Positions 3,449 through 21,796 of a DNA stretch of 28,246 bases are shown here, in pieces; the stretch's first letter is position 1, and each line of letters begins with the position of its first letter. The position numbers and the translations under genes were made by a program. This stretch comes from a virus, in the IMG/VR virus record IMGVR_UViG_3300046468_000516, positions 1 through 28,246 of that record, one strand, 5' to 3'. The notes under the pieces were generated by a model. It saw only the letters and a program-made list of their open reading frames with translations. It was not told where the DNA came from and ran no database searches.

Positions 3449-3810
3449 TATATTATGTATGTGTTATCATCTACTATACTATAAGGCTTGTATATTGTGC
3501 CATTACCTATCTCGTGTTTCTCAGTTACTCTTTCTGAAGCAGTTTGAGATGTTACGTATATTTTGTCTCTATACCAAAGCTCACTATCTTTAGTTATTTC
3601 TAAATAATAAGTAGAGTCCTCTTCAAGTATTGTTGATTGAAAAGTAACTTCAGTAAAGTTTACTATATTGCTTAAAGTAGCATTTGTTATAGACTCTTCT
3701 TTACCATCTCCATCTCTTCTTATATTTAAAACGAATACCCCTGACAAGTTTGAACTTCTCGGTGCAATCGTAATTATTTTATCTCCTGATGTCGGTTGTA
3801 ATATTAACAT
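3448..3810 (-). CDS. Beta-rich structural protein of unknown role, 120 aa
   Basis: The sequence alternates short hydrophobic strands and polar turns (DKIITIAPRSSNLSGVFVLNI, then STYYLEITKDSELWYRDKIYVTSQ), as in small beta-sandwich virion proteins. I recognise it as a kind of protein found next to portal and capsid genes in Bacteroidota phages but cannot name a function; decoration, neck or tail roles are all possible. It is preceded by a late-type promoter whose conserved block ends at the start codon. If the GTTATC block is the -10 element, the transcript would begin at or next to the ATG. Its stop overlaps the portal start as TAATG. Confidence 0.6.
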   Translation of the reverse strand: MLILQPTSGDKIITIAPRSSNLSGVFVLNIRRDGDGKEESITNATLSNIVNFTEVTFQSTILEEDSTYYLEITKDSELWYRDKIYVTSQTASERVTEKHEIGNGTIYKPYSIVDDNTYII

Positions 3811-3840
3811 ACTATGATAACTAAATAATTTATTTTTGTT
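3809..3840 (-). promoter_or_regulatory. Predicted phage late promoter for the 120-aa/portal/adaptor genes
   Basis: On the minus strand AACA (3840-3837) is followed by 15 nt and then GTTATC (3821-3816) plus ATAGTAT (3815-3809). The same two-box arrangement occurs before the tail operon, protease, terminase and non-coding RNA. The ATG at 3810 lies 5 nt after GTTATC, so the mRNA may be leaderless or nearly so. A strong terminator lies just upstream (3841-3878), so this operon needs its own promoter. Confidence 0.6.
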
Positions 3841-3878
3841 TTATTTAATAAAAAAACCCCACCAAAAAGGTAGGGTTT
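3841..3878 (-). terminator. Intrinsic terminator after the 182-aa structural gene
   Basis: On the minus strand a 10-position stem (3878-3869 with 3863-3854, one mismatch) with an AAAAA/TTTTT loop is followed by a T-run and TTATTAAATAA. It directly follows the gene at 3900-4448. Confidence 0.8.
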
Positions 3879-3899
3879 AGTTTAAATTAATTATAGTAA

Positions 3900-4448
3900 T
3901 TAGGAAATATCTGTTATACCTGCTGCTACAATATTTTGTTCAGGAGTGTTTCCTGAAACAGCAACTTTTAAGAAATTAGCTGGTTTTTTCTCCATACCAG
4001 TAAAACTCAAAGTATATCCAGTCATATCAGCCATAGCTCCACCTGTTACTACAGTACCTCCTGTTACATCCATTCCATATTCTAAACCTGAAAAGAATAC
4101 ATTTCCGTTATTGTCTTCAATAAGAATATGAGGTCTGTTAAAAGAAATTAGCTTAATTGCTTTGTGGTCTTCTTTGGTTAATTTTTTAAGACTTAACTCT
4201 AATACTTGCTCGAAAGCAGTAGTTCCATTCTCTCTACTTGATTGAATGTTTTCAGTATAGGTAGAGTTTCCTCTAACATTATATTTATAAGCATCTGGGT
4301 CTCCACCAACAGTAGCGATTACATCCTCATCTGTTGTGTCTGGTGTAATAAGACCTAATCCTCCAAAAGGAATAAAATAAACAGCGTTGATTCCACCAAC
4401 ACTATCTTTACAAGGTTCTGTTCTACCTGCCGTAATAAAATCACACAT
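3900..4448 (-). CDS. Major virion protein, probably tail tube
   Basis: The 182-residue product begins MCDFITAGRTEPCKDSVGGIN and contains ENGTTAFEQVLELSLKKL, NRPHILIEDNNGNVFFSG and a Gly/Thr-rich VTGGTVVTGGAMADMTGYTL. This pattern is one I associate with a structural protein of Bacteroidota phages encoded close to the capsid gene; the beta-rich make-up and size fit a tail tube subunit, although a head decoration protein cannot be excluded. The gene is enclosed by two strong terminators (4473-4506 and 3841-3878), as for proteins made in high amounts. No late promoter motif is visible in the 82-nt gap before it, so expression probably depends on read-through from the capsid gene. Confidence 0.6.
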   Translation of the reverse strand: MCDFITAGRTEPCKDSVGGINAVYFIPFGGLGLITPDTTDEDVIATVGGDPDAYKYNVRGNSTYTENIQSSRENGTTAFEQVLELSLKKLTKEDHKAIKLISFNRPHILIEDNNGNVFFSGLEYGMDVTGGTVVTGGAMADMTGYTLSFTGMEKKPANFLKVAVSGNTPEQNIVAAGITDIS

Positions 4449-4472
4449 AATATTTATTTTTTAATTATTAGT

Positions 4473-4506
4473 TATAAAAAAAGGGTAGGCAGTAACTACC
4501 TACCCT
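4473..4506 (-). terminator. Intrinsic terminator after the major capsid gene
   Basis: AGGGTAGG (4506-4499 on the minus strand) pairs with CCTACCCT (4489-4482) around a 9-nt loop, and a T-run follows to 4475. It sits between the capsid gene and the 182-aa structural gene and probably sets the ratio of their transcripts. Confidence 0.85.
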
Positions 4507-4530
4507 CTTTCTGTTTATTTATTTTTAATC

Positions 4531-5478
4531 TTAGTTAGCAGAATTTACTATTCCGTAAGTTACGATATCTTCAACGATTCCGTACTGTACACCTGCAGTA
4601 AATCTCATTATGATTCTTACGTTTTGAGAACCATCTAAGTCAGCCATATCTAATACTTTTACTTCTTGGTGGTCTGATAATAAACCTGTTCCAAATTGTA
4701 AGTTATCTTTAGTAGTTGCTACGGCAGTGTTTGCTGCTAATCCGTTAGCCATAAAGATTTTTACACCATCAAAGTATAAGATGTTAATATCTTGGTTGTT
4801 TCCTTGAGAACCTACACCAGCAGCACCTTGTCCATTAGCTTGGAATCCTCCTAAAGCTCTCTTGTAAGCTCTAAAGATGTTTTGAGAAACATAGATGAAT
4901 AAATCATCTCTACCATATAAAGCAGAAGGAATTGCATCTACTACTTTCCCTAATTCATCAACAACATTAGAAGCATCTACAGTAGTACCAGCAACTTCTT
5001 GTGCAGCAGGTAAAGCAGCATCAGCAGCTAATAGAGTAGAGAATCCATCAAATGAACCTTCTCCATCTGCTCCTGCCCATATGTTCTGCTCATTCTTTTG
5101 TGCTACTTTAGCAGCAACATAAGAGATTAAGTAGTCTTGGAAAGAAGATGGTAAGTTGTCAAATGCAGAATATCCCATTGAGATTGCATCCCAATCAGAA
5201 CGGAAATCTTTCTTACATAATTCTAAATTAACTTGTAATTCCTTTGGTTCAAGGATTCTTTCAGTTAAAGTCAAAGTTGAAGTGTCATTGAAGTCGCAAG
5301 TACCATTCTTAGTGATACCATCTAATTCCAATCTTTTAACAACCTCTTTGAACTTTACGTTTGGTCGGATAGTTAATCCACCATTTGCAATAGTGTTACC
5401 TGATAATAAAGCAGCAGAAATATATTTTCCTGCAGATTCCCCAGCGTAAGTTGTAGTAATACTTGTAGTAGTAGCCAT
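4531..5478 (-). CDS. Major capsid protein (HK97-fold)
   Basis: This 315-residue protein has the size and sequence pattern of major capsid proteins of Bacteroidota siphoviruses: an N-terminal arm, the motif LTERILEPKELQVNLELCKKDF (about residues 90-112, in two overlapping parts), the central SYVAAKVAQKNEQNIWAG, and a C-terminal beta-rich part (VRIIMRFTAGVQYGIVEDIVTYG). It forms the capsid shell. The neighbours support it: an acidic scaffold gene and an XkdF-like protease lie directly upstream. The gene is followed by a strong terminator. The codons and amino acid content (many Ala and Gly, few Lys) differ from the Lys- and Ile-rich neighbours, as expected for a highly expressed structural protein. 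Confidence 0.9.
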   Translation of the reverse strand: MATTTSITTTYAGESAGKYISAALLSGNTIANGGLTIRPNVKFKEVVKRLELDGITKNGTCDFNDTSTLTLTERILEPKELQVNLELCKKDFRSDWDAISMGYSAFDNLPSSFQDYLISYVAAKVAQKNEQNIWAGADGEGSFDGFSTLLAADAALPAAQEVAGTTVDASNVVDELGKVVDAIPSALYGRDDLFIYVSQNIFRAYKRALGGFQANGQGAAGVGSQGNNQDINILYFDGVKIFMANGLAANTAVATTKDNLQFGTGLLSDHQEVKVLDMADLDGSQNVRIIMRFTAGVQYGIVEDIVTYGIVNSAN

Positions 5479-5490
5479 TTTGTCTAATTT

Positions 5491-5967
5491 TTAATTAAAT
5501 AACATTCTATTAACTCTCTCTTCGATAGTCATAGATTTGTTTGGGTTTGATAATAAATTCTTTTTCTTTTCGATTTGAGCCTCTGGAGAATGTACAACTT
5601 CTTCTACATTTTCAGATAATTCAACTTCTTCTTGTTTAGATAACTCCTCAGGAACTTCTTTAGCTTCTCCCATTGGTTTATCTTCGATTAATGCTTTAAT
5701 CATAGAAAGTAGCTCTGCTTTTACTGCTGATAATTCTTCAGAAGTAGCGTAACTCATAGCAGGAGCTTCAACTTCCTCCTCGATTACAACCTCTTCTTTA
5801 GGCTCTTCAGCAAGTACAACTTCTTCTACTTCCTCTTTTACTTCTTCAGTTACTTCCTCTGTAGATAACTCTACTGACTCTTCAACTGCAATGTCTTCAA
5901 CTTTTATCTCTTCTTTAGAAAGATTTAAAAGCTCTTTGACATTATTAAGGATTTCTGTCGCTTTCAT
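5491..5967 (-). CDS. Acidic scaffold-like protein
   Basis: The 158-residue product is strongly acidic and Val/Glu-rich (long runs such as EEVTEEVKEEVEEVV), then has a helical segment (TSEELSAVKAELLSMIKALI), another acidic stretch and a short basic C-terminus (PNKSMTIEERVNRMLFN). High charge, predicted coiled coil, and a place between protease and major capsid genes are hallmarks of capsid scaffolding proteins, where the C-terminal basic segment often binds the coat. It has no recognisable enzyme motif. The start is an ATG 13 nt below a variant late promoter (5980-6011). Function is inferred from composition and context. Confidence 0.75.
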   Translation of the reverse strand: MKATEILNNVKELLNLSKEEIKVEDIAVEESVELSTEEVTEEVKEEVEEVVLAEEPKEEVVIEEEVEAPAMSYATSEELSAVKAELLSMIKALIEDKPMGEAKEVPEELSKQEEVELSENVEEVVHSPEAQIEKKKNLLSNPNKSMTIEERVNRMLFN

Positions 5968-5979
5968 ACTTATTGGTTT

Positions 5980-6011
5980 ATATTAATATAACTATTTAAA
6001 AATTTACTGTC
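5980..6011 (-). promoter_or_regulatory. Variant late promoter before scaffold and capsid genes
   Basis: On the minus strand GACA (6011-6008) is followed after 15 nt by GTTATA (5992-5987) and TTAATAT (5986-5980). Each box differs by one base from the consensus AACA/GTTATC, but the spacing equals that of the 3810 and 16460 sites. It would boost scaffold and capsid transcription. Confidence 0.45.
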
Positions 6012-6017
6012 GTATTT

Positions 6018-6152
6018 TTACTCTTCTTCTTGCTTGTGAATTGAGCCTATGCCTTGCTTCCAATACTCGTCTGCGTTGCATTTTCTTTTCTTTAAATACT
6101 TATCACAATCAATAGAATAAGTATTCTTACATTTGCAATATTTAGCTCTCAT
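6018..6152 (-). CDS. Small Cys-containing protein between protease and scaffold, 44 aa
   Basis: The ATG at 6152-6150 overlaps the protease stop as ATGA and the frame ends with TAA at 6020-6018. The product begins MRAKYCKCKNTYSIDC and has four cysteines (residues 6, 8, 16 and 25) in a pattern that could bind zinc, then a Lys/Arg stretch and an acidic end. I do not recognise a family. Translational coupling and the lack of any other use for this interval support a real gene. Confidence 0.55.
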   Translation of the reverse strand: MRAKYCKCKNTYSIDCDKYLKKRKCNADEYWKQGIGSIHKQEEE

Positions 6153-6736
6153 ACATCTTCAGTTAATATTTTCTTTATCTCTTCTAAAACACTACTCGCT
6201 TCAACCTCTTCAATATCTTCTACGTTATCGCTAAACATACCTTCGATACTTAATCCTAAGTATTTACCTTGTTTAACATCTTCCCATACCTCATCGTTGT
6301 CTATCTTCATAGTAACTGCCCAAGCACCTTCTACTGCATTTAATCCATATAAAGCAGTCTTATCCTTTTCAGGGTCTTCTACTATCCAAGATTCTATAAC
6401 AGATACACCTCCTGTAAATTCAGCGTGTTCTAATGTTGTATTATTGTTTTTAAGGCGTTTTAAGTATAGCTCAGACGCTTTTCTTACTGTTTCGGTAGAG
6501 AAGGTTATATTATACTCATAATCTCCTCTACGTCTGTATATGAGCTTATTTGGTACTAATGCTAAACCAACTATTATTCTTTTTTCTGAATCAACAGTTT
6601 TAAACTCTACTTTATGCTTACTTAAAGCTACAAAGTTCTCTTCAATAGCTGGAAATTCTACTAATGATATTGCATCAATTCCATCTTCCTCTCTTGATTC
6701 GTCTATAAATAATTCTATTATATCTAATCCTTCCAT
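6149..6736 (-). CDS. Prohead protease, XkdF-like (putative serine protease)
   Basis: The 195-residue protein matches the XkdF-like phage serine protease family (Peptidase_S78_2 type): EKRIIVGLALVPNKLIYRR at about 51-70, ITFSTETVRKASELYLK at 77-93, TTLEHAEFTGG with candidate catalytic His104, the strand ESWIVEDPEKDKTALYGL, and GKYLGLSIEGMF with candidate Ser163. It would trim scaffold and capsid proteins during head maturation. The order protease, small Cys protein, scaffold, capsid supports this. The start is preceded by a late promoter at 6750-6782, which restarts transcription after the tape measure gene. The short acidic C-terminal tail is unremarkable. Confidence 0.85.
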   Translation of the reverse strand: MEGLDIIELFIDESREEDGIDAISLVEFPAIEENFVALSKHKVEFKTVDSEKRIIVGLALVPNKLIYRRRGDYEYNITFSTETVRKASELYLKRLKNNNTTLEHAEFTGGVSVIESWIVEDPEKDKTALYGLNAVEGAWAVTMKIDNDEVWEDVKQGKYLGLSIEGMFSDNVEDIEEVEASSVLEEIKKILTEDV

Positions 6737-6749
6737 ATTTAACTTATTT

Positions 6750-6782
6750 ATACTATGATAACTTGTTTTATTTTATTCTGTT
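6750..6782 (-). promoter_or_regulatory. Predicted phage late promoter for the head genes
   Basis: On the minus strand AACA (6782-6779), a 16-nt spacer, GTTATC (6762-6757) and ATAGTAT (6756-6750). The protease ATG follows 20 nt after GTTATC. It is in the only substantial gap between tail and head genes. Confidence 0.6.
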
Positions 6783-6787
6783 TTATT

Positions 6788-8683
6788 TTAAGTACCTGCT
6801 TGACTTACAATCATACCATCTAACTGTTGTTGATTAGTAACGTCTCTCGATACTACATAGGCTTTTAATGGCTTATCAAACTGTGCTTGTATTGCGTTTA
6901 TAAGTAAGTTATCGCCAGACCTTCCTACTATATTAAACGAAGGGTCTGCTCGTTGTGATGCACCTGCTCCACCACCACCAGTAGTATTAATAGGTGTTGC
7001 TGCTGATGATGATTGATATTTTTGTCTTGATATAGCTGCTACTTGGAGTAAACCTCCTGCTATTGCTACACCTGCGTTTATTTTAGCTTTTAACAATCCT
7101 CCATCTGGTAATAATTTATTTATTGGGTTAGCTAAAGTATTTTTAAAAACAGAACTTGCTGCTGAATAAGTATCTAATAAAGCAGTAGATATGTTAAATG
7201 CTTTTTGAGTATTAAAGGCTTTTTTCTTTATCGCCTCTTGTTTTACTCTTAGTCTTTCGTCATTTTGAGCTATTTCATTTTGAATACTTTTTCTTTGGTC
7301 AGCAGATAAGCTTTCGTTTAATAATCTATTATTCAATTCCTCGTTTAGAGCATTTGTTTTATTTTGCTCTATAGTTAATTGTCTTTCAAATTCTCCATCT
7401 ACAAAATCAGTAAGACCTGACATTACTACATTGTACCTTTCTATAAACTGAAGAAGCTCGTCTTCATCAGGCATAAAAGGAGTTACTTTTGCTGGTAATA
7501 TAAGTTCCCCTGTTATATTAGCAGTATCACTTATATCATCAAAATTCTCATCTTTAATAATATCTGCAAGACCTGCCATCTCATTGTAAAACCATTTTAC
7601 GAGAGGTCTATCTTTACCTGTTGGTTTTTTACCATTTTTTTCAGGGTCTAAAATTAACGCATCACTAATATTATTTATTTGTTCTAATATAGGGTCAGAT
7701 TCTTTCTTTATACCTTTAGCTAAAATATTGAAATCTTGTATCAATTCATCATTTGTCTTTTTTCTTAAAGTTAAATTAGCTTGACCCATCTGATAAGATT
7801 GATTAACAGCTTTCTCTAACTCAATACCTTCTTCTTTTAGTAAACCTTTTATTATCTTAACTTTCTCTTCTTGGTCTTCTGTAGAATTAACTAAATCTAC
7901 CCTCATTTGCTTAGATAATAAGGCAGAGTTTTCTTGAACTAACTTATCCATCTCTACCCTACCAGCTTGAGCAAGAGTATATTGTTTTATTTTTAATCTA
8001 ATATCATCTAAACTATTTCCGTATTTTAAATCTTCCTCACTTAAAGTAGGTATTAATTTTATTAACTCTTGAGTAACTACCTTTCTTCTTTCTTCAGTTA
8101 AATTAACATCTTCAAGTTCTTTTGCATATTGATTAGCAACTAAACCACTTGAATAAACTTCTTTTGTTAAATCACTTACGGATTTCTGAGCTTTTTCATT
8201 AGCTCCAAAGAAAAAGTCTAATGCAGATATAGCTGCTGTAATAGCGAAAACTATACCAAGAGGCCCCATAAGTTGTTTACCCATAAGTTTCAAAGCACTA
8301 CTAAGACCACCTGCTTTAGTAGATGCAGTACCTAACTGAGAAACTAACTGAGTGATGTTATTCGCCATACCACGAATACCATAAGGTGCATCAGATATAA
8401 CTCTACTAAGTTCCATTGTTGCTGAAGTAGCACTACCTGTAGCATCTGAAATTTGGTGTTGAGTTTTAACTAATTTACCATATTCTTTTTGAGTTAGCTT
8501 TAATGATTTAAGCGTACCTCCTGAACCTGTTTTACTTATAGTTTGATTTAATTTTTTAGCAGAGTTTTCAGCATTTTTAACTGTAAGGTCAATATCTCTA
8601 AACCCTTTTTCTGTAGATTGAAGTTTAACAATATTACCTTCATCATCAACAACTACTTTAAATACAATTTTTTCGTCAGCCAT
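6788..8683 (-). CDS. Tail tape measure protein
   Basis: At 631 residues this is the tail-length ruler that lies inside the tail tube. The N-terminal 130 residues are helical and Lys/Thr/Ser-rich; residues about 135-160 are hydrophobic (GPLGIVFAITAAISALDFFFG), then come long helices, and a coiled-coil region with QNDERLRVKQEAIKKKAFNT and ALLDTYSAASSVFKN. The C-terminus (SFNIVGRSGDNLLINAIQAQ and AYVVSRDVTNQQQLD) is the typical end of Bacteroidota phage tape measures. By the usual ruler relation (about 0.15 nm per residue) a tail of around 95 nm would be expected. The start overlaps the stop of a 48-aa ORF as TAATG. It lies downstream of the baseplate-type genes, the reverse of the lambda order. 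Confidence 0.88.
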   Translation of the reverse strand: MADEKIVFKVVVDDEGNIVKLQSTEKGFRDIDLTVKNAENSAKKLNQTISKTGSGGTLKSLKLTQKEYGKLVKTQHQISDATGSATSATMELSRVISDAPYGIRGMANNITQLVSQLGTASTKAGGLSSALKLMGKQLMGPLGIVFAITAAISALDFFFGANEKAQKSVSDLTKEVYSSGLVANQYAKELEDVNLTEERRKVVTQELIKLIPTLSEEDLKYGNSLDDIRLKIKQYTLAQAGRVEMDKLVQENSALLSKQMRVDLVNSTEDQEEKVKIIKGLLKEEGIELEKAVNQSYQMGQANLTLRKKTNDELIQDFNILAKGIKKESDPILEQINNISDALILDPEKNGKKPTGKDRPLVKWFYNEMAGLADIIKDENFDDISDTANITGELILPAKVTPFMPDEDELLQFIERYNVVMSGLTDFVDGEFERQLTIEQNKTNALNEELNNRLLNESLSADQRKSIQNEIAQNDERLRVKQEAIKKKAFNTQKAFNISTALLDTYSAASSVFKNTLANPINKLLPDGGLLKAKINAGVAIAGGLLQVAAISRQKYQSSSAATPINTTGGGGAGASQRADPSFNIVGRSGDNLLINAIQAQFDKPLKAYVVSRDVTNQQQLDGMIVSQAGT

Positions 8684-8829
8684 TATCTTGTTAGTTTTTT
8701 TCTTTTTATACTTGTTTTTAACTCTCTAAAACTTGAAGGTAATTCATATAGTCCTTTAGCTATATTAATATCCTTGTCTTCTATTAACCACTCGTTATTC
8801 CTTAGTAATTCTAATGTTTCTCTTATCAT
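8683..8829 (-). CDS. Small protein coupled to tape measure, 48 aa
   Basis: The ATG at 8829-8827 overlaps the stop of the 715-aa gene as TAATG and the TAA at 8685-8683 overlaps the tape measure start in the same way, so both ends are coupled. The product is a charged helical peptide (MIRETLELLRNNEWLIED... ending KRKKLTR). No family is recognised. The exact fit between two genes is strong evidence that it is translated; it may be a tail assembly helper. Confidence 0.65.
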   Translation of the reverse strand: MIRETLELLRNNEWLIEDKDINIAKGLYELPSSFRELKTSIKRKKLTR

Positions 8830-13110: not shown

Positions 13111-13367
13111 CTCATTTTTTGTTTTAACATTCTACTTTCTAATTCTGATTTCTCTTTTACAAATTCCAAATACATTAAGCATTGGTGTAAAGGGAGTCTT
13201 GTAACCTCTCCGATTCTTCTAACATCTTCTCGAGCGAGAGTAAATATTGCTTGATAGTCTCCCCATTTTCTACCGAAAGCTTGTCCTGCCGACCCTCCTG
13301 TTTCTTCTGCAACTCTTTGAGTGTATAAGCCATCGTATAATTCCCTAATTTTGTCGCTAAACGATAA
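13107..13367 (-). CDS. -1 frame extension of the tail assembly chaperone (frameshift product, 86 codons used)
   Basis: In the -1 frame relative to the chaperone gene, an open frame runs from the slippery site to TGA at 13109-13107. It has no ATG, GTG or TTG before Met residue 62 of the extension, and a TAG at 13385-13383 closes it just upstream of the slip, so it can only be made by frameshifting. The predicted peptide is protein-like: DKIRELYDGLYTQRVAEE, then GGSAGQAFGRKWGDYQ, REDVRRIGEVTRLPLHQ, CLMYLEFVKEKSELES. I know similar segments (FGxKWGxYQ... EVTxLPLHxCL) as small proteins following the chaperone in related phages. The stop overlaps the next start as ATGA. It would give a chaperone fusion of 258 aa, as with lambda gpGT. 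About 190 nt are read in both frames. Confidence 0.78.
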   Translation of the reverse strand, partial: LSFSDKIRELYDGLYTQRVAEETGGSAGQAFGRKWGDYQAIFTLAREDVRRIGEVTRLPLHQCLMYLEFVKEKSELESRMLKQKMR

Positions 13368-13882
13368 AAAAAAACCCTTGCACTAAGTGCAGCGTCTAAT
13401 GGAGCATCTCTCATTACATCAGCCATATACTCTGTACCCTTGTAATCGTGTATAAGATACTTATCTTTACTCCTGAACTTAATTGGTCTGTAAAGAACTG
13501 CCATAGCCTTATGATAATTCTTATTATCAAACATATACTTCTCTAAGTCTATAAACTCTCCATAACTCATCTTATCAAAGTTAGGTATCAATCCAAACTC
13601 TACAACAACGTCATCTGTACCTTTTAAGCTAAACCTTTGAACTAAATCTATCTTTTGATTAAGTAAGTTAGAAATGTGTTGTATGGTGCTATAAAACACC
13701 TCTAAGCCTAACTTGTCTATGTCCTTAAAGTCAATATTACAAAAGATGCTTAAAAGCTTCTTGTCTAAAAACTCAGTATCTTCTGCGTCTTTATTCTTCT
13801 CGTAAATATCAATATACCTTTGCCATTGGTTTAATTTTATACCTCTTAATGTTGCAGGTACTTCAAAACTAAAATCACTCAT
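13175..13882 (-). CDS. Tail assembly chaperone (zero-frame product)
   Basis: The 235-residue protein follows the Bacteroidota phage tail chaperone pattern: VPATLRGIKLNQWQRYIDIY at the start, KKLLSIFCNIDFKDID, a central GLIPNFDKMSYGEFIDLEKY, KAMAVLYRPIKF and PLDAALSARVFF (residues 161-172). The C-terminal part, with SVENGETIKQYLLSLEKMLEE, also fits the family, so the zero frame is genuine after the slip site. It would keep the tape measure soluble before tube assembly. The codons from residue 173 onward are unusually GC-rich: by hand count 54 of 120 bases at 13201-13320 are G or C against 36 of 120 at 13441-13560, as expected if two frames constrain the same DNA. A late promoter lies 22 nt upstream. 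Confidence 0.8.
   Translation of the reverse strand: MSDFSFEVPATLRGIKLNQWQRYIDIYEKNKDAEDTEFLDKKLLSIFCNIDFKDIDKLGLEVFYSTIQHISNLLNQKIDLVQRFSLKGTDDVVVEFGLIPNFDKMSYGEFIDLEKYMFDNKNYHKAMAVLYRPIKFRSKDKYLIHDYKGTEYMADVMRDAPLDAALSARVFFYRLATKLGNYTMAYTLKELQKKQEGRQDKLSVENGETIKQYLLSLEKMLEESERLQDSLYTNA
13366..13374 (-). other. T9 slippery run for -1 frameshifting
   Basis: On the minus strand nine T residues follow GGG. In the zero frame they read GTT TTT TTT TAT, giving the heptamer T TTT TTT at 13373-13367, which allows both tRNAs to slip back one base. The slip joins Phe172 to the -1 frame (Leu-Ser-Phe-Ser-Asp). A weak 5-bp inverted repeat (13365-13361 with 13336-13332) lies downstream but is closer than usual for a stimulator. 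RNA polymerase slippage on the T9 run, adding one U, would have the same effect. Confidence 0.7.
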
Positions 13883-13896
13883 AAATAAACATTGTT

Positions 13897-13930
13897 ATAC
13901 TAAGATAACTTAATTTATTTTTTTTGTGTT
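13897..13930 (-). promoter_or_regulatory. Predicted phage late promoter for the tail operon
   Basis: On the minus strand AACA (13930-13927), a 17-nt spacer, GTTATC (13909-13904) and TTAGTAT (13903-13897). The chaperone start is 22 nt below GTTATC. It lies back to back with the host-type promoter at 13938-13967, so this gap drives late genes leftward and the small operon rightward. Confidence 0.6.
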
Positions 13931-13937
13931 AATTTTT

Positions 13938-13967
13938 TTGTCAGATTAAATAATTTAACTATATTTG
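13938..13967 (+). promoter_or_regulatory. Host-type Bacteroidota promoter for the rightward small-gene operon
   Basis: TTG at 13938-13940, exactly 19 nt, then TATATTTG at 13960-13967 match the Bacteroidota housekeeping promoter (-33 TTG, -7 TAnnTTTG). The expected transcript start is about 13973, giving a leader of roughly a dozen bases before the ATG at 13985. Confidence 0.75.
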
Positions 13968-13984
13968 CATTAGATATATTGAAT

Positions 13985-14227: not shown

Positions 14228-14237
14228 AACAATAATT

Positions 14238-14603: not shown

Positions 14604-14604
14604 G

Positions 14605-14832: not shown

Positions 14833-14838
14833 ATTAAG

Positions 14839-15123: not shown

Positions 15124-15133
15124 AACAATCATT

Positions 15134-15295
15134 ATGAACAGAAGAAAACTAATACAGAAACTACAACAACTTATAGATAGATTACCTATAAGCAATAAAA
15201 GAAAAGAAGCTAAACAAGACCTACTAAGTCTTAAACTAAATAAAAGCCAATACCACGATATAATGATATTTGATAAGTATAAGAAAAATCTATAG
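15134..15295 (+). CDS. Small basic protein, 53 aa
   Basis: The ATG at 15134 follows the previous stop by 10 nt in the context TAAAACAATCATTATGA. The product (MNRRKLIQKLQQLIDRLP... ending DKYKKNL) is Lys/Arg-rich and helical with no recognised domain. Its last codons and stop lie in the 19-bp repeat that is duplicated on the far side of the adjacent homing endonuclease gene, so the insertion left this gene intact. It is the last original gene of the plus-strand operon. Confidence 0.6.
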   Translation: MNRRKLIQKLQQLIDRLPISNKRKEAKQDLLSLKLNKSQYHDIMIFDKYKKNL

Positions 15296-16414
15296 TACGT
15301 GAATACAGAGGTTAAAAATAAAGTTGTTTATTTACATAGAAAAAAAACAGAAGGAACTATTTTTTATGTAGGTATGGGTGAGCAAAATAGAGCCTATACT
15401 ACTCACTCAAGGAATAAGTGGTGGGTAAATGTGTACAAAAAACACGATAGAGTAGTAGATATTGTTGCTAAAGACCTTAGTATAGATGATGCTTATGAGT
15501 TGGAAGTGTTTTTAATTTCTGAAATAGGAAGAAAGGATTTAGGATTAGGTAATCTTGTTAATCTTGATGATGGTGGAAAAGGTGCTGCTGGTCATATACC
15601 CACACAAAACGCAAGGAATAAACTAAGTAAAAGACTGTCTAAGAAAGTTATAAATACAGAAACTTTAGAAGTTTTAAAATCTGGTACTGAATTAACTAAA
15701 AAATACGGAATATTCGGAAATGTATTACAAAAAGACCACCCAAATAGTGATTGGATGAAGTTAGAGGATTATAAAAACGGAAAACATTTAACAGAAAAAT
15801 GGATTAATAGATATAAAATAAAAAATAGTTATGTAAAAATCATAAACACAAATACATTAGACATATTCTACTCCATTGAAGAAACTGCTAAAAGCATAGG
15901 TAAAGGAAGTTATAAAACTAATCAAGGTCAGTACATTCGTTTATCTCAGAAATTAAAAGGCTCAATTAAAAACAATTCAAACTTTATGTATTATGATGAT
16001 TATGAAAAAGGACTTCATTTAACAAAAGAATGGATTAGAAGGAAAGAAAGAAAAATAAGTAAGAGAGAGATTCCTTTAAAGGAAATAGAAATATATGACT
16101 TTAAAAAACAAGTTTGGTTTAAAACAACAAGGAGTGATTTTTATGATAAATATAGTATTAAACCATCTACTTATACAGCTTTATTACACGGAAGGTTCTG
16201 TAGAAAAGAATATAAGAAATTCAATAAAACAAATAATCAATGGAAAAATATATTAAATATTGAAACAAATAAAGTAGAGAGATTTAATCAATGGTATTTA
16301 TCAGAAAAATTAGGTGTAACATCAAATAACTTATCAAATTTATTTTTAGGTAGAACTAAAATACTATACAAAAAATATAAGATTATTGATTGACAATAAG
16401 AAAAATCTATAGTA
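15279..16414 (+). mobile_element. Homing-endonuclease gene insertion flanked by a perfect 19-bp direct repeat
   Basis: ATAAGAAAAATCTATAGTA occurs at 15279-15297 and again at 16396-16414, bracketing the endonuclease gene closely (2 bp on the left, 2 bp on the right of its stop). The left copy encodes the end and stop of the 53-aa gene. The right copy forms the first half of a small hairpin (16408-16424) that would close the operon. Removing one repeat plus the gene restores a gene end running straight into the hairpin, so the unit behaves like a recent insertion with target duplication. Confidence 0.75.
15299..16393 (+). CDS. GIY-YIG homing endonuclease with tandem NUMOD1-like DNA-binding modules
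   Basis: The 364-residue protein begins at GTG 15299, 3 nt after the upstream TAG; no ATG lies before the catalytic domain. Residues about 8-95 are a GIY-YIG domain (VVYLHR, FYVGMGEQNRAY, ELEVFLISEIGRKDLG, NLVNLDDGGKG), closely similar to the endonuclease at 256-885. The rest carries four repeated NUMOD1-like modules: KKVINTETLEVLKSGTEL, VKIINTNTLDIFYSIEET, IEIYDFKKQVWFKTTRS and ILNIETNKVERFNQWY. Each is followed by a helix and short basic segment. Different DNA-binding modules on a shared nuclease domain imply different target sites. It is inserted between the last gene and the hairpin of the plus-strand operon. Confidence 0.85.
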   Translation: MNTEVKNKVVYLHRKKTEGTIFYVGMGEQNRAYTTHSRNKWWVNVYKKHDRVVDIVAKDLSIDDAYELEVFLISEIGRKDLGLGNLVNLDDGGKGAAGHIPTQNARNKLSKRLSKKVINTETLEVLKSGTELTKKYGIFGNVLQKDHPNSDWMKLEDYKNGKHLTEKWINRYKIKNSYVKIINTNTLDIFYSIEETAKSIGKGSYKTNQGQYIRLSQKLKGSIKNNSNFMYYDDYEKGLHLTKEWIRRKERKISKREIPLKEIEIYDFKKQVWFKTTRSDFYDKYSIKPSTYTALLHGRFCRKEYKKFNKTNNQWKNILNIETNKVERFNQWYLSEKLGVTSNNLSNLFLGRTKILYKKYKIID

Positions 16415-16424
16415 AACAACTATA
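16408..16424 (+). terminator. Weak hairpin at the end of the plus-strand operon
   Basis: TATAGT (16408-16413) pairs with ACTATA (16419-16424) around AAACA, followed by an AT-rich stretch with TTTATTTAT. There is no clean T-run, so this may be only an RNA-stabilising or weak termination hairpin. Confidence 0.35.
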
Positions 16425-16459
16425 CTATACTATTTATTTATAATACAACATTATACACA

Positions 16460-16491
16460 AACAAAAATAAATTATTTAGTTATCTTAATAT
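16460..16491 (+). promoter_or_regulatory. Predicted phage late promoter facing the non-coding region
   Basis: AACA (16460-16463), 15 nt, GTTATC (16479-16484) and TTAATAT (16485-16491). Its spacer is nearly identical to that of the 3810 promoter (AAAATAAATTATTTA shared). It is the only late-type site on the plus strand, and no gene follows it for over 500 nt, so the product is probably an RNA. Confidence 0.6.
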
Positions 16492-17040
16492 ACAGAGTTG
16501 TAGTTCTCTTTAACCTACCAAACTTTAGTCATAATCGTAAGGCTATTGGTTCAGATACATTAAGTCTCCTTAGTAATTGCATCTATAACCTTTATAATCT
16601 TCGTAGCACCCAATAGATATTCAAACTAACGAGCATAAACAGTTATACCAGTTAGCTAACTACTAACATACATTAAGATTATAGGAGGGTGCATATCTAA
16701 ACATCGAGCATATAATTATATTTTCAAAATTAGATTACCTGTTTATAACAAAAAGATATTAGACTATAATCAGTATTGGACTAATTATTATATTTTCAAA
16801 ATTGATATGTCAGTTTTAAACGAAAAGATATTTGACTATTTAAGTATATCGGATATAGCTAGAATTCGTTAAAGATAGATACTACACAATCCTAATCTTT
16901 GATTTACGCCTATTTCTCTATATCTATGGTACATTACTATAGATTTAATATTTGAGTGGCTTAGACGTGCTTAAATTGAGTTTTGATTTGTGGTTTAAAT
17001 TTCTATATCATACCCCTAAACAATGCCAAGCAATTAAAAA
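16492..17040 (+). ncRNA. Candidate structured non-coding RNA downstream of a late promoter
   Basis: No convincing gene is present in 16425-17048. The segment has several complementary blocks: 16543-16549 with 16610-16616 (7 bp), 16593-16601 with 16675-16683 (9 bp), 16606-16611 with 16687-16692 (6 bp, crossing the previous helix, so a pseudoknot or switch is possible), a TAAG/CTTA hairpin at 16561-16572, a palindrome AGTTAGCTAACT at 16650-16661, and an ATCTAT/ATAGAT hairpin at 16922-16944. Two 53-nt repeats lie in the middle. A 60-odd codon open frame through the repeats (to TAA at about 16873) lacks an ATG start, so a decayed gene is the main alternative. The 3' end is not defined. Confidence 0.45.
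16715..16839 (+). repeat. Two 53-nt imperfect direct repeats in the non-coding region
   Basis: Units at 16715-16767 and 16787-16839 have a period of 72 nt and match at 42 of 53 positions by hand alignment. The first 17 bases (ATTATATTTTCAAAATT) are identical, as is most of AAAAGATATTnGACTAT near the end, while the 18 nt between them vary. In each unit ATATTTT can pair with AAAAGATAT, giving two similar hairpins. Confidence 0.7.
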
Positions 17041-17051
17041 AATAACTGCAT

Positions 17052-17085
17052 AAAAAAAACCTATATAAAATTTAATCTATATAGG
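17052..17085 (-). terminator. Intrinsic terminator of the AT-rich leftward operon
   Basis: On the minus strand CCTATATA (17085-17078) and TATATAGG (17067-17060) form an 8-bp stem, followed by eight T residues. It closes the operon spanning 17109-19733 and separates it from the non-coding region. Confidence 0.8.
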
Positions 17086-17108
17086 CTAAATTAATAGGTA
17101 AAATATTA

Positions 17109-17288
17109 CTATTCGTTTAAGAAATAGCGTTTAAATGTTGTTTCAAGTACATCAATAATATTATCTTTGTCATTTCCATTCAATGCACAATTAATTAAGA
17201 ATTCGATTTCGTCGTATGGGTCGGCACATTCATAATTAAGCCAGTCGAAATAAGTTTCAATGTATTTTTGTTTTTGCTCTAATGTCAT
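17109..17288 (-). CDS. Unknown acidic small protein, 59 aa
   Basis: The ATG at 17288-17286 begins an ORF that ends in TAG at 17111-17109, just before the operon terminator. The product (MTLEQKQKYIETYFDWLNYE... CADPYDEIEFLINCAL...) is acidic, helical and has two cysteines. Small, acidic, aromatic-rich proteins in accessory phage operons are often inhibitors that mimic DNA or bind host proteins, but I see no specific motif. It is the last gene of the operon. Confidence 0.6.
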   Translation of the reverse strand: MTLEQKQKYIETYFDWLNYECADPYDEIEFLINCALNGNDKDNIIDVLETTFKRYFLNE

Positions 17289-17317
17289 AATATTTGTTTT
17301 TATTTTTATGTTATTTA

Positions 17318-17839
17318 TTAACTTATTATGTATTCAATGGTATCATATTTAATACCAAATTGCTCATTAAATTCTTTTATTATACTTTCACTTTCTGGAA
17401 ATTCTGTTTGATTAACACAAAACCCAAAACATTCAGTATTTACACTTGAATAAGTTTTATTGTCTACTGTTACTAATTCATTAACGTATGCAATATAATC
17501 GTTTAAATGTGTGAAAGATTTTTTTAATAATTTAATTAATTGTTTTAAATAAGCTTTGTTAATTTCATCTTTATTGTAGTGTAAAGTATATTCTTGCCAA
17601 TCCGACTGGCTATATCCTACAGCGTTAATAATCAATTTATCTGTATAGTTATTATTATAAGCATTTGTTGCTTGTAATTCTTTAATTATATTCACAAAAC
17701 TATTGTTTTTTATTTCACAATATAGGTCTAATTCAGTTAATAAATAACCTATATTTTGATTTCTTATATCATAAGATAAATTACTATTATAATCTTTTTT
17801 TATTACTACTTTTGTATTAATGTTTATTTTATTAGTCAT
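17318..17839 (-). CDS. Unknown protein, 173 aa, with GYSQSDWQEY motif
   Basis: The product is mixed alpha/beta and Asn/Tyr-rich. A central IINAVGYSQSDWQEYTLHYNKDE (about residues 69-91) recalls a GYxQGDW-type motif seen in some phage and plasmid proteins of unknown function; it is followed by a helical segment (YLKQLIKLLKKSFTHLNDYI). The start sits in the recurring context TATAACGATATG. No catalytic residues or localisation signals were identified. Confidence 0.6.
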   Translation of the reverse strand: MTNKININTKVVIKKDYNSNLSYDIRNQNIGYLLTELDLYCEIKNNSFVNIIKELQATNAYNNNYTDKLIINAVGYSQSDWQEYTLHYNKDEINKAYLKQLIKLLKKSFTHLNDYIAYVNELVTVDNKTYSSVNTECFGFCVNQTEFPESESIIKEFNEQFGIKYDTIEYIIS

Positions 17840-17854
17840 ATCGTTATATATATT

Positions 17855-18136
17855 TTAATGTTTTATGTTTTGGGATATTAATTTCATTGCGTTGTATTTT
17901 CTCGTAAAATCTATGACCCCTTTTAAAATATCGTTTTCATTTTCATATTCCAACCAAAAGTAAATTTGATTTTTTAACGCATCATTATGAAAAAATACAT
18001 TTTTATACAGTTCTTTATCTTTATGTTTTTTGAGATAATTATATAATTTTTGAAACCTATCAACGTCATCAATACTTATATTTTTGTACGTATACTTGTT
18101 TGCTCGTAAACAGCTTAAAAATTGCCTTACTATCAT
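17855..18136 (-). CDS. Unknown helical protein, 93 aa
   Basis: The product (MIVRQFLSCLRANKYTYKNI...) is Lys-, Tyr- and Asn-rich and mostly helical, with FQKLYNYLKKHKDKELYK in the middle and YFWLEYENENDILKGVIDF later. No family is known to me. The start is in the context TATAACGATATG, 4 nt after the previous stop. It belongs to the AT-rich accessory operon. Confidence 0.55.
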   Translation of the reverse strand: MIVRQFLSCLRANKYTYKNISIDDVDRFQKLYNYLKKHKDKELYKNVFFHNDALKNQIYFWLEYENENDILKGVIDFTRKYNAMKLISQNIKH

Positions 18137-18140
18137 ATCG

Positions 18141-18335
18141 TTATAATTTTAATTTTAACCTTAACTCTTTTCTGTGTATTTTATGGTTGTAAAAATCACA
18201 CCATATATTTGCATAATCTTTTCTGCCGAATAAATTTATTACTTTAACACCTTTCTCTTTTAAACTCCGGTGTGTTTCTTTTGTTGTTTCGAGTATCAAA
18301 ACTTTTCCATCTTTTTCTATTATAAAATATTTCAT
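18141..18335 (-). CDS. Unknown small protein, 64 aa
   Basis: The product starts MKYFIIEKDGKVLILETTKE and ends HKIHRKELRLKLKL, alternating short beta strands and basic helices. No motif is recognised. Its start uses TATAACGATATG, identical to the start contexts of the genes at 18136 and 17839, which supports translation of all three. Confidence 0.55.
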   Translation of the reverse strand: MKYFIIEKDGKVLILETTKETHRSLKEKGVKVINLFGRKDYANIWCDFYNHKIHRKELRLKLKL

Positions 18336-18347
18336 ATCGTTATAAGT

Positions 18348-18551
18348 TTAAAAAGTTATTGAATTGAATTGTTTTTTAATGCAGCTCAAGGCCTTAAAAT
18401 TAGTGTACTTATTACGGTGTCTATATAAGTCGTTTGTTAAAATATAGCTACTTATTTCCGTTCTATCTTTGTTAAGTGAATAGCAAATAAAATCTTTGTT
18501 GGTACTTACTAATTTGAGTCTTAATTTAAAGTTTATTTTTAGTTTAAACAT
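18348..18551 (-). CDS. Unknown small basic protein, 67 aa
   Basis: The product (MFKLKINFKLRLKLVSTNKDF...) is very basic and beta-like at the N-terminus, with SCIKKQFNSITF at the end. The ATG is 2 nt after the stop of the upstream 53-aa gene (TAACAATG). No domain is recognised. In parts it resembles the upstream 53-aa product (both have a FIxYSLN/YFSINK type segment followed by a helix), suggesting they may be related duplicates, though this is tentative. Confidence 0.5.
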   Translation of the reverse strand: MFKLKINFKLRLKLVSTNKDFICYSLNKDRTEISSYILTNDLYRHRNKYTNFKALSCIKKQFNSITF

Positions 18552-18553
18552 TG

Positions 18554-18715
18554 TTATATATTTTTTATAAAGTTGATTAATTCTTTTTTACTCTCTTTAT
18601 TGATTGAGAAATAATTTGTTTTTTTACCCTCGCATCTAATTTGTATCGAACTATGTAATTTTAAATTTCCTAATTTGTCTAAATTATTTTTGTAGTAATT
18701 GTTTAATTTATTCAT
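18554..18715 (-). CDS. Unknown small basic protein, 53 aa
   Basis: The ATG at 18715-18713 starts an ORF ending in TAA at 18556-18554. The product (MNKLNNYYKNNLDKLGNLKL... then NYFSINKESKKELINFIKNI) is Asn- and Lys-rich. The ORF fills the space between two other genes with only 2 nt to the next start and 11 nt from the previous stop, which supports it. No function is suggested by the sequence. Confidence 0.5.
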   Translation of the reverse strand: MNKLNNYYKNNLDKLGNLKLHSSIQIRCEGKKTNYFSINKESKKELINFIKNI

Positions 18716-18726
18716 TGTTATTATTT

Positions 18727-19545
18727 TTAAATTAAGTTTTTTATATAGTTTATTTCTTTTATAGATATATTATGACAACCTACTTTTAAAAAGTTGTTAA
18801 AAGAAGTAACCGTAAACCTATTATCTATTTTTTGACCTATTACTTTTTTTGCTTCAATTAATTTTAAAACTTTTTTTGCTTCTTTAATTGATATTTTTAC
18901 ATTTTGACTTGTTTCTATGTTTTCGCCATTGATACGTAAATAGTCAAAATTTGTTTTATTTAGAAACCAGTCTATTTTATTACTTTTCCAATCTTTTAAC
19001 TTTTGTACTATTTCTTTTTTTGCTTTTATTGATGCTTTTAAATTAGCCTCTTTTATCGTTTCTTTTAAATTGTCAAAATCATTATAAAATTTATTTGCTA
19101 TTCTTAAAGTTTCTCTATGCTCTTTATAACTATTAAATTTTGTTTTCTGTTTGGTATATTCTAAATATTCAAAATACATTTTTAAAGTACTATCTATTTG
19201 TGTTAAATAAAACTCTTTTGTTTTTCTTGCTTTAACTAATTTATTTAAGTACTCTTTTGTATTTTGATTTACTCTTTTATAGTCTGTTTTAGTTATAAAA
19301 TATTGTTTTCTGTTTCTTGTTGCTGATGTAATTAAACTTATATGTTTTCCTGTTGTACTTGAATAACCTTTGTCGTTTATTAAAATTGTATTATTGTCTA
19401 AAAATTCAGCTAATAAATAGTGTGAACCATAACTATAAATTTTATTGTTATAAAAATAAATTGAACCGTTTGAGGTTCGACCCTCGTTTTGATTTTGCTC
19501 GTTAAATACGTGTACTATTTCACTATTTGTAAACACTCTTTTCAT
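18727..19545 (-). CDS. Conserved phage protein of unknown function, 272 aa
   Basis: The N-terminal 75 residues hold a distinctive pattern: IVHVFNEQNQNEGRTSNGSI, YFYNNKIYSYGSHYLLAEF, then a GYSSTTGKHISLITSAT. I recognise this HVF-x-GR-x-YSYGSHYxLA arrangement from proteins of unknown function in many phages and plasmids. The rest is Lys-rich and helical, about 95-200 forming a likely coiled coil. No nuclease, methylase or HTH signature is visible. It is the largest gene of the AT-rich leftward operon. Confidence 0.65.
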   Translation of the reverse strand: MKRVFTNSEIVHVFNEQNQNEGRTSNGSIYFYNNKIYSYGSHYLLAEFLDNNTILINDKGYSSTTGKHISLITSATRNRKQYFITKTDYKRVNQNTKEYLNKLVKARKTKEFYLTQIDSTLKMYFEYLEYTKQKTKFNSYKEHRETLRIANKFYNDFDNLKETIKEANLKASIKAKKEIVQKLKDWKSNKIDWFLNKTNFDYLRINGENIETSQNVKISIKEAKKVLKLIEAKKVIGQKIDNRFTVTSFNNFLKVGCHNISIKEINYIKNLI

Positions 19546-19546
19546 C

Positions 19547-19657
19547 TTATTTGTTTTTATTGTTGATTTCCTTTTTTAATTTGTTAACTAAATGTAATAA
19601 ATAGATATTATCTGTTGCAGTTGCTAAATTTCTAATTTGCTCTATTGTTTCTAACAT
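19547..19657 (-). CDS. Small helical peptide, 36 aa
   Basis: The ATG at 19657-19655 and TAA at 19549-19547 frame a 36-residue helical peptide (MLETIEQIRNLATATDNIYL...). Its stop is 1 nt before the ATG of the 272-aa gene and its start 4 nt after the preceding small ORF. This spacing supports translation as an upstream peptide or leader, but composition alone is weak evidence. Confidence 0.4.
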   Translation of the reverse strand: MLETIEQIRNLATATDNIYLLHLVNKLKKEINNKNK

Positions 19658-19661
19658 ATTT

Positions 19662-19733
19662 TTATCGTTTTATAGTATGAATAGCCTGAGCGATTTTTTT
19701 TAGTTCCTTAATTACTTTTTTAATTTGTTTCAT
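19662..19733 (-). CDS. Very small basic peptide, 23 aa
   Basis: The ORF runs from ATG 19733-19731 to TAA 19664-19662 and encodes MKQIKKVIKELKKIAQAIHT plus three residues, an amphipathic Lys-rich helix. It is the first ORF below the host-type promoter at 19775-19805. It may be a small protein or a leader peptide; it could also be chance. Confidence 0.3.
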   Translation of the reverse strand: MKQIKKVIKELKKIAQAIHTIKR

Positions 19734-19774
19734 TGTTTTGAGTTTTAAATAGATAACTTAATTGTTATCCTATG

Positions 19775-19805
19775 CAAATTTAAAACAAATAAATTTAATA
19801 CACAA
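19775..19805 (-). promoter_or_regulatory. Host-type Bacteroidota promoter for the AT-rich leftward operon
   Basis: On the minus strand TTG (19805-19803), 20 nt, then TAAATTTG (19782-19775) fit the -33/-7 Bacteroidota promoter with a spacer one base longer than ideal. The transcript would start near 19768 and cover all nine ORFs to the terminator at 17052-17085. A GATAAC/GTTATC inverted repeat at 19752-19769 lies at the start point and could be an operator. Confidence 0.6.
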
Positions 19806-20030
19806 CAAAAAAACAAAAAAATGTAACAAAAATAAATTTCAGTGTTTTATCATTCTATTGCTAAGGTATAAATTTGTAATATAATTTTAACAATTAAACA
19901 CTTGCATACGTCTACAAAAAATAAACCATATAAAAAAATAATATCGTTATTTATAATGAATATAAATAAGCTATTTTTAACGAGTCTAAATAAGAATAAG
20001 CTATCAAGAATCATTCTAAATAATAAAATA

Positions 20031-20167
20031 TACCCCCTCATATTAAACATACCCCCTCATATTAAACATAGGGTATTATATTAAACATCCCCCCATATTA
20101 AACACACCCCATTATATTAAACAAAAAAAGGGAGACAAAATTAATTGACCCCCTTCATATTAAACAT
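20031..20167. repeat. Iteron-like tandem array, 19-bp unit
   Basis: The core ATATTAAACA occurs six times, at 20040, 20059, 20078, 20095, 20114 and 20157 (start positions), with steps of 19, 19, 17, 19 and 43 bp. Each core is preceded by a C-rich segment, the fullest unit being ACCCCCTCATATTAAACAT. The near-constant 19-bp step places sites on nearly the same DNA face and suggests cooperative protein binding. The terminator hairpin interrupts the array between copies five and six. Confidence 0.8.
20123..20155 (-). terminator. Intrinsic terminator after terminase large subunit
   Basis: On the minus strand AAGGGGG (20155-20149) pairs with CTCCCTT (20134-20128), with one G-U pair, around a 14-nt loop, and a T-run follows to 20123. 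It lies 20 nt below the terminase stop. Confidence 0.75.
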
Positions 20168-20174
20168 TTTATTT

Positions 20175-21386
20175 TTATCTTATCACATAAACTCCAGAGT
20201 TTACCCCTTGTACTAAATACATCATACCATACCTAATAGCATCTATAAAGTGATTAAACTTATCTATTGGTGCTTCTCCCTTGTCTTTCCATACATAGTT
20301 GTTTAGCTCTCTTATTATGCCGTGAGAACCTCTATCAACTATTATCTCATAATCTTGCATAAGTGCTATACCTGATAATATACTACCTTTCTTCTTTATT
20401 GTAGGTTTTATGTTAAGACCCAATGTTTTCATCTCTGATATTAAACGTGGTTCACTATTATCACAAATAATTAAATCCATACCACACTCTCGTCTATTCA
20501 TACCTGCTATCTCAGATGTGTTTAGATTAGGTTTTCCGTAGATTTCCTTAACCCAAACCTTTCTTGCATTCTTATCTACCGAAATCTTCACAAGTGTCGT
20601 TAAATCGGCTGAAAATCCAAAATCCTGCCCATAGCAAGTAAGTTCTGTAGGAATAAAGTCTCCTACTCTCCATTTTCTTATAATAGTACCTTCAGCTTTC
20701 TCAAGCCAACCTCCTAATATTTGGTGTTGATACTTATCTGGTCTCTTACGTTTCATTTCATATATCCTACCTAAGAATGATTCAGATAAGTTTGTCTTAT
20801 TATCTTTGTAAGTTGTATGAACATAAGTAACATCTCCTTTAACCATATTAGATGCTGCCAATACGTTTTCATTTTGGAAAAACCTCTGATATATCCAATG
20901 CTCTTTAGTTGTTGGATTCAGTATAAGAATAACTCTATTCTGTTTAGTTTGTGAACGTATAGAGAAATCAATCTTATCAAAAACACTTTCATCAACAAGT
21001 TCTTCTGCTTCATCCACTACAAATGTAGTTATACCATTTAAGGATTTAAGTGCTGCAGTCTGATTACCTGATGATGTTCTAATACCTTTAAATATAATAG
21101 AGCTACCTGTCTTGAGGTTCATAATCTCATCTTTAGTTATCCTAAAGTCATCGTGGACTCCCATTAAGTTAATCTTCTCAATAAATTCAGGAATAATAGA
21201 TGTATGTGCTGAAATCATAGTATAACGTGAGAACAGTATCTTATGTCCTGATTCATAAGTTAAGTTAAGTAAGAATACATTTATACCAAATGACTTACCA
21301 CTACCCCTACCTCCTGTAACAACAAAATACCTACCTTCGTTCTTGAAAATAGGTATATATTTCTCGTGTATATTTATATTATTCAT
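20175..21386 (-). CDS. terL: Terminase large subunit (ATPase and nuclease)
   Basis: This 403-residue protein is the DNA packaging motor. Walker A is GGRGSGKS at residues 25-32, Walker B is TFVVDEAEE at 121-129, and the coupling motif is LNPTT near 156-160. The nuclease domain has the expected acidic residues: QDFGFSADLTT (Asp255), LIICDNSEPR (Asp309) and HFIDAIRYG (Asp382). The length and motif forms fit the Terminase_3/PBSX-like group. The gene overlaps its small-subunit partner by 8 nt and is followed by a strong terminator and the 19-bp repeat array. Confidence 0.93.
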   Translation of the reverse strand: MNNINIHEKYIPIFKNEGRYFVVTGGRGSGKSFGINVFLLNLTYESGHKILFSRYTMISAHTSIIPEFIEKINLMGVHDDFRITKDEIMNLKTGSSIIFKGIRTSSGNQTAALKSLNGITTFVVDEAEELVDESVFDKIDFSIRSQTKQNRVILILNPTTKEHWIYQRFFQNENVLAASNMVKGDVTYVHTTYKDNKTNLSESFLGRIYEMKRKRPDKYQHQILGGWLEKAEGTIIRKWRVGDFIPTELTCYGQDFGFSADLTTLVKISVDKNARKVWVKEIYGKPNLNTSEIAGMNRRECGMDLIICDNSEPRLISEMKTLGLNIKPTIKKKGSILSGIALMQDYEIIVDRGSHGIIRELNNYVWKDKGEAPIDKFNHFIDAIRYGMMYLVQGVNSGVYVIR

Positions 21387-21765
21387 CTTTTGGTGTTACG
21401 TCTATAATCTTATCTTTAATCTTCTTACCTTCAACGCTATCTCCAAAGAAATTAATAGTAGGTGCTTGAACTTTATTAGAAACCTCTTCTTTATCATCTC
21501 CATAAGCAAAATCCATAAGCAATTTCATATGATTATAGCTACCTTCTTCTGCTTTCTTAGCTAAGCTCTCAAAAGCATTTACTTCGCTCCCAAATACGTT
21601 CTTAATAGCCTTTTTAGCATATTGTTTCTTACGATTCTTCTTAGCAGTATTCATTGCAGGTTTATTAGACCTCTCTTTTTCTGGTACAGGTAGCTTAGGA
21701 ATAGATTTCTTTCTACTATTACCTTTTCTACCATCTGTTGGCTTAATCTCTTGTGAATTACTCAT
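21379..21765 (-). CDS. Probable terminase small subunit
   Basis: The 128-residue protein is very basic in its first half (GRKGNSRKKSIPKLPVPEKE, then NTAKKNRKKQYAKKAIKNVFG) and has a short helical segment (NAFESLAKKAEEGSYNHMKLLMDFAYG), followed by an acidic end. The order and 8-nt overlap with the large subunit, size and basic DNA-binding character indicate the small terminase subunit that recognises the packaging site; the sequence alone would not prove it. A late promoter abuts the ATG (GTTATC, 5 nt, ATG), so the mRNA may have almost no leader. Confidence 0.65.
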   Translation of the reverse strand: MSNSQEIKPTDGRKGNSRKKSIPKLPVPEKERSNKPAMNTAKKNRKKQYAKKAIKNVFGSEVNAFESLAKKAEEGSYNHMKLLMDFAYGDDKEEVSNKVQAPTINFFGDSVEGKKIKDKIIDVTPKDE

Positions 21766-21796
21766 ATTATGATAACTAAAGTATTGTTATTTTGTT
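21764..21796 (-). promoter_or_regulatory. Predicted phage late promoter for the terminase genes
   Basis: On the minus strand AACA (21796-21793), a 16-nt spacer, GTTATC (21776-21771), ATAATAT (21770-21764). The start codon begins 5 nt after GTTATC, exactly as at the 3810 site. Confidence 0.6.

Follow-up and report, generated by a model that had tools for sequence, protein, structure and literature searches.

The window analysed here, that is the whole stretch of 28,246 bases, is a virus contig (G000) with a GC content of 29%. Its packaging and structural genes lie on the minus strand: a candidate terS (21379-21765), assigned from its position before terL and the first gene of a putatively regulated operon, is followed by the terminase large subunit gene terL (20175-21386); the first gene of a tail operon is found at 13175-13882, a prohead-protease-like gene at 6149-6736 and a scaffold-like gene at 5491-5967. 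Downstream of the latter is a capsid candidate (4531-5478), which matches PHROG_11320, a family of unknown function, and is proposed from gene order; the portal protein (1682-3448) lies downstream of a 120-aa gene in the operon starting at 3810. A gene for an ECF-like sigma factor (25439-25969) is also on the minus strand. Iteron-like direct repeats of TGTTTAATATRRKGGGG (minus strand, about 19-nt spacing) occupy positions 20020-20167, between terL and the genes at 17-19.5 kb, and are a possible replication origin or packaging site; the same repeat is found in 90 loci, mostly of these phages. Two similar-looking homing-endonuclease-like genes are present at 256-885, which matches PHROG_314, and at 15299-16393.

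The initial annotation described five strict copies of a two-box element in this genome, and a pattern search of the whole window for AACAN{15,17}GTTATC recovers all of them in place: at 3816-3840, 6757-6782, 13904-13930 and 21771-21796 on the minus strand, and at 16460-16484 on the plus strand. The five matches compare with 0.29 expected, and five were reached in 0 of 100 shuffles. The WTARTAT extension (GTTATCWTARTAT) proposed 3' of GTTATC accompanies every strict site. Four sites are located 11 to 27 nt 5' of terS, the tail operon, the protease gene and the 120-aa/portal operon; no ORF follows the fifth, on the plus strand. The weaker copy reported at 5980-6011 (GACA-N15-GTTATATTAATAT) is present too, and is not a chance match, because its orthologues in four relatives (G014, G016, G017 and G019) are intact, with AACA-N15/16-GTTATATTAATAT lying 29-30 nt 5' of the orthologous scaffold gene. 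As had been claimed, no intergenic copy precedes the replication genes (22.5-28.2 kb). De novo search for gapped motifs on single AT-rich genomes is too weak without composition correction; once corrected, it ranks part of the motif top in the window and the whole motif top in the cultured phage P12024S, and it does not rank the motif top in all genomes.

Each copy can be read as a predicted late promoter. Those of terS-terL (21764-21796, minus strand) and of the 120-aa gene and portal (3809-3840, minus strand) share one geometry, which the initial annotation did not point out: counting 11 nt on from the first G of GTTATC leads exactly to the A of the ATG (21765 and 3810, respectively). The predicted promoter of the tail operon (13897-13930, minus strand) has its ATG 27 nt past the G, a distance kept at 26-28 nt in relatives; at that of the protease gene (6750-6782, minus strand) the distance is 26 nt, and the second box in relatives is GTTATC or GTTAAC. 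A weaker predicted promoter (5980-6011, minus strand), supported by the intact orthologous sites, would serve the scaffold-like gene and the capsid, and the plus-strand copy (16460-16491) a structured non-coding RNA, since it precedes nearly every homologue of that RNA. Just upstream of the promoter at 3809-3840, an intrinsic terminator-like hairpin (3854-3878, minus strand) appears to end the preceding unit. A divergently oriented neighbour of the tail promoter is a host-type promoter, TTG-N19-TATATTTG (13938-13967, plus strand), for small plus-strand ORFs, conserved in G001 and G008. The suggestion that early genes use a TTG/TAnnTTTG promoter is weakly supported, with 7 copies of that pattern in the window vs 3.3 in shuffles, of which this site is the one that is clear and conserved.

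The product of 25439-25969, which the initial annotation called an ECF-like sigma factor, is a 176-aa protein with regions 2 and 4, and profile and fold searches bear the assignment out. It matches TIGR02937 (sigma70-ECF) with E=1.8e-9 (37.4 bits, under the curated cut-off of 42.9) and PHROG_1740 with 8e-7. As a single sequence it reaches Pfam Sigma70_r2 (region 2) only at E 0.014, below the curated cut-off; 19 of 41 family members match Sigma70_r2 at E<=0.01. The family profile finds SigW (4e-4) and SigL (7e-4), aligning positions 13-162. The AF2 model consists of two helical domains joined by a floppy linker (75-89), with a pLDDT of 77.7 and low global confidence (pTM 0.38); used in Foldseek, it gave ECF sigmas as the top 12 PDB matches (probability 0.99-1.00, E 1e-3 to 2e-2), with low global TM. 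Among these fold matches is PDB 9n9q; a link to dCas12f-sigma RNA-guided transcription was discarded, as no Cas protein is found in the window, and a literature search on that link returned nothing relevant. The protein displays regions 2 and 4 but no region 3, and its length is within the 160-190 aa or so of ECF factors. ECF sigma factors favour AAC in the -35 box, and the predicted promoters have an AAC-containing -35 box at near-fixed spacing (AACA-N15-17-GTTA). By profile and predicted fold, the protein is thus a member of a large ECF-like sigma family, which has at least 569 relatives in IMG/VR; BLAST of the window protein against 50,697 phage records gave no similarity. The adjacent gene (24948-25442, minus strand) shares 4 nt with the sigma gene and encodes a 164-aa protein with CxC and CxxC motifs, conserved alongside the sigma as far as P12024S gp35; it is a possible partner, either an anti-sigma or a co-factor. 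At 23278, a 179-aa protein shows a weak HTH match.

Behind the plus-strand promoter lies a conserved non-coding segment. Its homologues are numerous (among them those in L012, L096, L137, L141, L152, L168, L184, L194, L294, L301, L302 and L340), and almost every one immediately follows the motif. The segment contains a structured core of about 200 nt (16490-16692, plus strand), whose start and end are predicted positions. Its elements are a 5' pseudoknot, a CCAA/TTGG hairpin and the helices d, a, b and c, which occur in the order d a b c a' d' b' c', so that a, b and c are mutually crossing; RNAalifold adds a 5' helix, which crosses the GUAG/CUAC helix. In 15 distinct sequences, 91.8% of cells are paired under the named structure vs 32-44% when it is slid, 19 pairs (73 cells) have changed on both sides, and covariation is 0.408 vs 0.146 (0/500); this count leans towards the structure, because that was read off those very sequences. 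Ten held-out sequences confirm helices a, b and c as predicted from the alignment, with permutation counts of 1/20,000, 0/20,000 and 119/20,000, respectively; helices b and c may form simultaneously or alternate. Rfam contains no match to the RNA at gathering score and none meaningful at E<=10, and P12024S/L do not match the RNA model. One homologue, in G054, occurs without motif and without sigma. The plus-strand copy appears to drive a conserved RNA with crossing helices, a point missed in the initial annotation, and this RNA looks new. We consider it likely that the late regulon includes this new family of knotted RNA (about 200 nt, with a 5' pseudoknot and three mutually crossing long-range helices), which would be made together with the particle proteins and have a dedicated role, for example in packaging, virion content or host takeover. 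The homing-endonuclease-like gene at 15299-16393 shares the strand of the RNA locus and lies just 5' of it.

The motif is not confined to the window. In 22 relatives, including the complete genome of the cultured phage P12024S, the boxes precede the matching packaging, head and tail operons, and they precede no replication gene; the search over relatives thus upheld the expected recurrence at matching operons and absence from early regions. A comparison of the region upstream of terS in about 60 distinct relatives shows boxes and ATG unchanged, with turnover of the spacer and even of the entire preceding gene. The spacing to start codons was counted in 186 loci with the sigma, comprising 2,611 distinct gene starts; the 'non-sigma' loci are mostly fragments of these phages and were left out as negatives. 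At 63 distinct starts, [AT]ACA-N15-17-GTTA is found exactly 11 nt upstream, as against one start each at 10, 12 and 13 nt, and a second peak is found at 26 nt (13 starts); five control patterns give 0-1 starts at 10-13 nt. In some sigma-bearing contigs (G046, G048, G052 and G053), no AACA/GTTA site can be recognised at the 11-nt distance. At terS and the 120-aa gene the expected start site of transcription is therefore the start codon itself, and ECF-type spacing suggests that transcription starts on this A, in which case the mRNAs would be leaderless; the pattern predicts leaderless late mRNAs at many sites.

Motif and sigma occur together in related near-complete genomes, as they should if one serves the other. 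When records were retrieved by the motif first, the sigma (E<1e-57) was found in five of the six whole records with at least two sites, and the sixth (G024) has no homologous phage genes in the part examined; it was found in 0 of 4 single-site records. As the motif is AT-rich, isolated matches in other genomes often arise by chance; the matches in G024, G026, G027, G028 and G030 were set aside as chance, the parts examined having no sigma and no homologous late genes. The TerL relatives RAP44 and Harreka have no sigma and 0 sites in 160 gene starts; the top de novo pattern of RAP44, TAAC-N17-TATG, reflects stop/start context and not two boxes. G017 has the motif but lacks the sigma gene, which may have been lost to truncation of the contig at terS, where it starts.

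The sigma and its sites also vary by lineage. P12024S, a complete Nonlabens phage whose sigma gene (gp33) is syntenic and whose annotation lists no RNA polymerase, has seven AAAACA-N16-17-CGTTAATATA sites before structural and terminase operons, all with the ATG 10-11 nt from the G; the bases before the ATG vary (ACATG, CCATG, TAATG) and the distance is constant, and the motif is the best de novo pattern of that genome (log10P -9.6). In G013, whose sigma is 33% identical, AACA is absent and a variant of its own, (C)AAAAT-N12-14-ACGTTATATATA, is found 5' of the matching operons. More generally, variants of the -10 site are more alike within than between genomes (5.52/8 vs 3.98 expected, sd 0.25, 0/5000). 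A diverged sigma is thus accompanied by its own coherent motif, which is the outcome foreseen for a true sigma/promoter pair; such lineage-matched variants are what co-evolution of recogniser and site predicts, and shared ancestry contributes. The co-occurrence is confounded by shared ancestry and the shift in motif rests on few independent lineages.

What these genomes show directly is a conserved motif, where it is placed, that it goes with the sigma gene and that the two are matched lineage by lineage; from this we infer the binding of the sigma to the sites, the start sites and the late timing. In the reading that we hold to be very probably correct, the phage ECF-like sigma, together with the host core polymerase, acts on two-box promoters of the packaging, head and tail operons and of the structured RNA, with several leaderless mRNAs. 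The sigma would be made from the early or middle region, bind the host core RNA polymerase and direct it to promoters with AACA at about -31 and GTTATC at about -11; the first transcribed base would be the A of TAT(A/G), located 11 nt past the G, and the products would be the packaging, head and tail transcripts and, from the opposite strand, the non-coding RNA. At several late genes this start site would be the start codon, hence the leaderless messages.

Another factor could instead read the boxes, either an alternative sigma of the host or a phage-encoded activator working alongside the primary sigma of the host; the sigma-like protein of the phage would then have a different task. Host ECF sigmas too favour AAC at -35, and small conserved proteins are encoded nearby (the 164-aa CxC/CxxC protein and the 179-aa protein with its weak HTH match); however, a shared host factor does not predict a distinct, coherent motif in lineages whose phage sigma has diverged, the near-complete genomes with the motif have this sigma as their common transcription factor, and two boxes separated by 15-17 nt look like direct sigma contacts, so that we regard this explanation as unlikely. 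Much less probable still is that the motif, being near the ATG, acts as a translation-start or RNA-level signal and not as a promoter: the exact 11-nt spacing at many genes would agree with such a signal, as would the few Shine-Dalgarno sites used by Bacteroidota, yet the boxes also lie 25-30 nt before the ATG (protease, tail, scaffold) and before a non-coding RNA, and their spacer varies by 1-2 nt, as in promoters. That the repeats are functionless AT-rich sequence passed on by descent, as the 29% GC of the genome and some chance matches elsewhere could suggest, is negligibly probable and already contradicted by the persistence of the boxes while flanks and spacers turn over, by the single spacing shared by non-homologous genes with no comparable peak in control patterns, and by the coherence of variants within genomes.

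Sigma-type proteins of phages, such as T4 gp55 and SPO1 gp28/gp34, are known to carry out the late or middle switch; T4 late transcription needs the sliding clamp and gp33 and uses a -10 element only, and SPO1 uses a sigma cascade. The proposed sigma resembles them in being a sigma-type phage protein that would turn on late genes. With bacterial ECF sigmas (SigW, SigL, SigE; TIGR02985 in Bacteroidota) it shares regions 2 and 4 and the AAC in the -35 box; conversely, it is phage-encoded, scores below curated cut-offs, pairs with a GTTATC -10 box and has no demonstrated anti-sigma. Phage sigmas with cognate middle/late promoters are described for phiEco32 and Salmonella phage 7-11 (PMC4331800); the T4 system has been reviewed (PMC2988020). 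As proposed here, in phiEco32 and 7-11 a phage sigma redirects the host polymerase and the structural cluster is under its promoters, with other genes under host promoters; their promoter, however, is a 9-bp element, TAATGTATA, instead of the two boxes AACA/GTTATC, and their hosts are Enterobacteriaceae, whereas those of the window phages are most likely Bacteroidota. Another close system is that of the Nonlabens phages P12024S/L (Inhavirus), with a similar arrangement of genes about the terminase and sigma gp33 and with two-box sites, whose second box is CGTTAATATA and not GTTATC; the record annotation marks no regulon. The initial annotation knew of no described regulon with this motif in Bacteroidota phages, and none was found in the openly accessible journal papers that the search covered. 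That a phage can bring a sigma together with late promoters for it is a known idea (phiEco32, 7-11); what is new is the two-box promoter and its occurrence in phages most likely of Bacteroidota.

Since the cultured relative grows on Nonlabens, the window phages most likely infect Bacteroidota, flavobacteria being the most probable hosts of this family of small marine phages; a scan of bacterial genomes gave three MAG contigs only, with no clear prophage. The finding offers a concrete, testable candidate for the late-transcription switch of an abundant marine phage group with cultured relatives (P12024S/L), predicts leaderless late mRNAs and points to a structured phage RNA. With a sigma and a dedicated promoter set in each of its many lineages, the group is a natural data set on the joint change of sigma and promoter. 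One of the relatives, G003 (58,119 bases), has the regions of the sigma and of the 120-aa gene in two copies and is probably a concatenated assembly. The TerL of OQ791282 (Shigella phage Henu10) is 44.6% identical to that of the window, as close as the TerL of Riemerella phages, so the host label of that record may be wrong.
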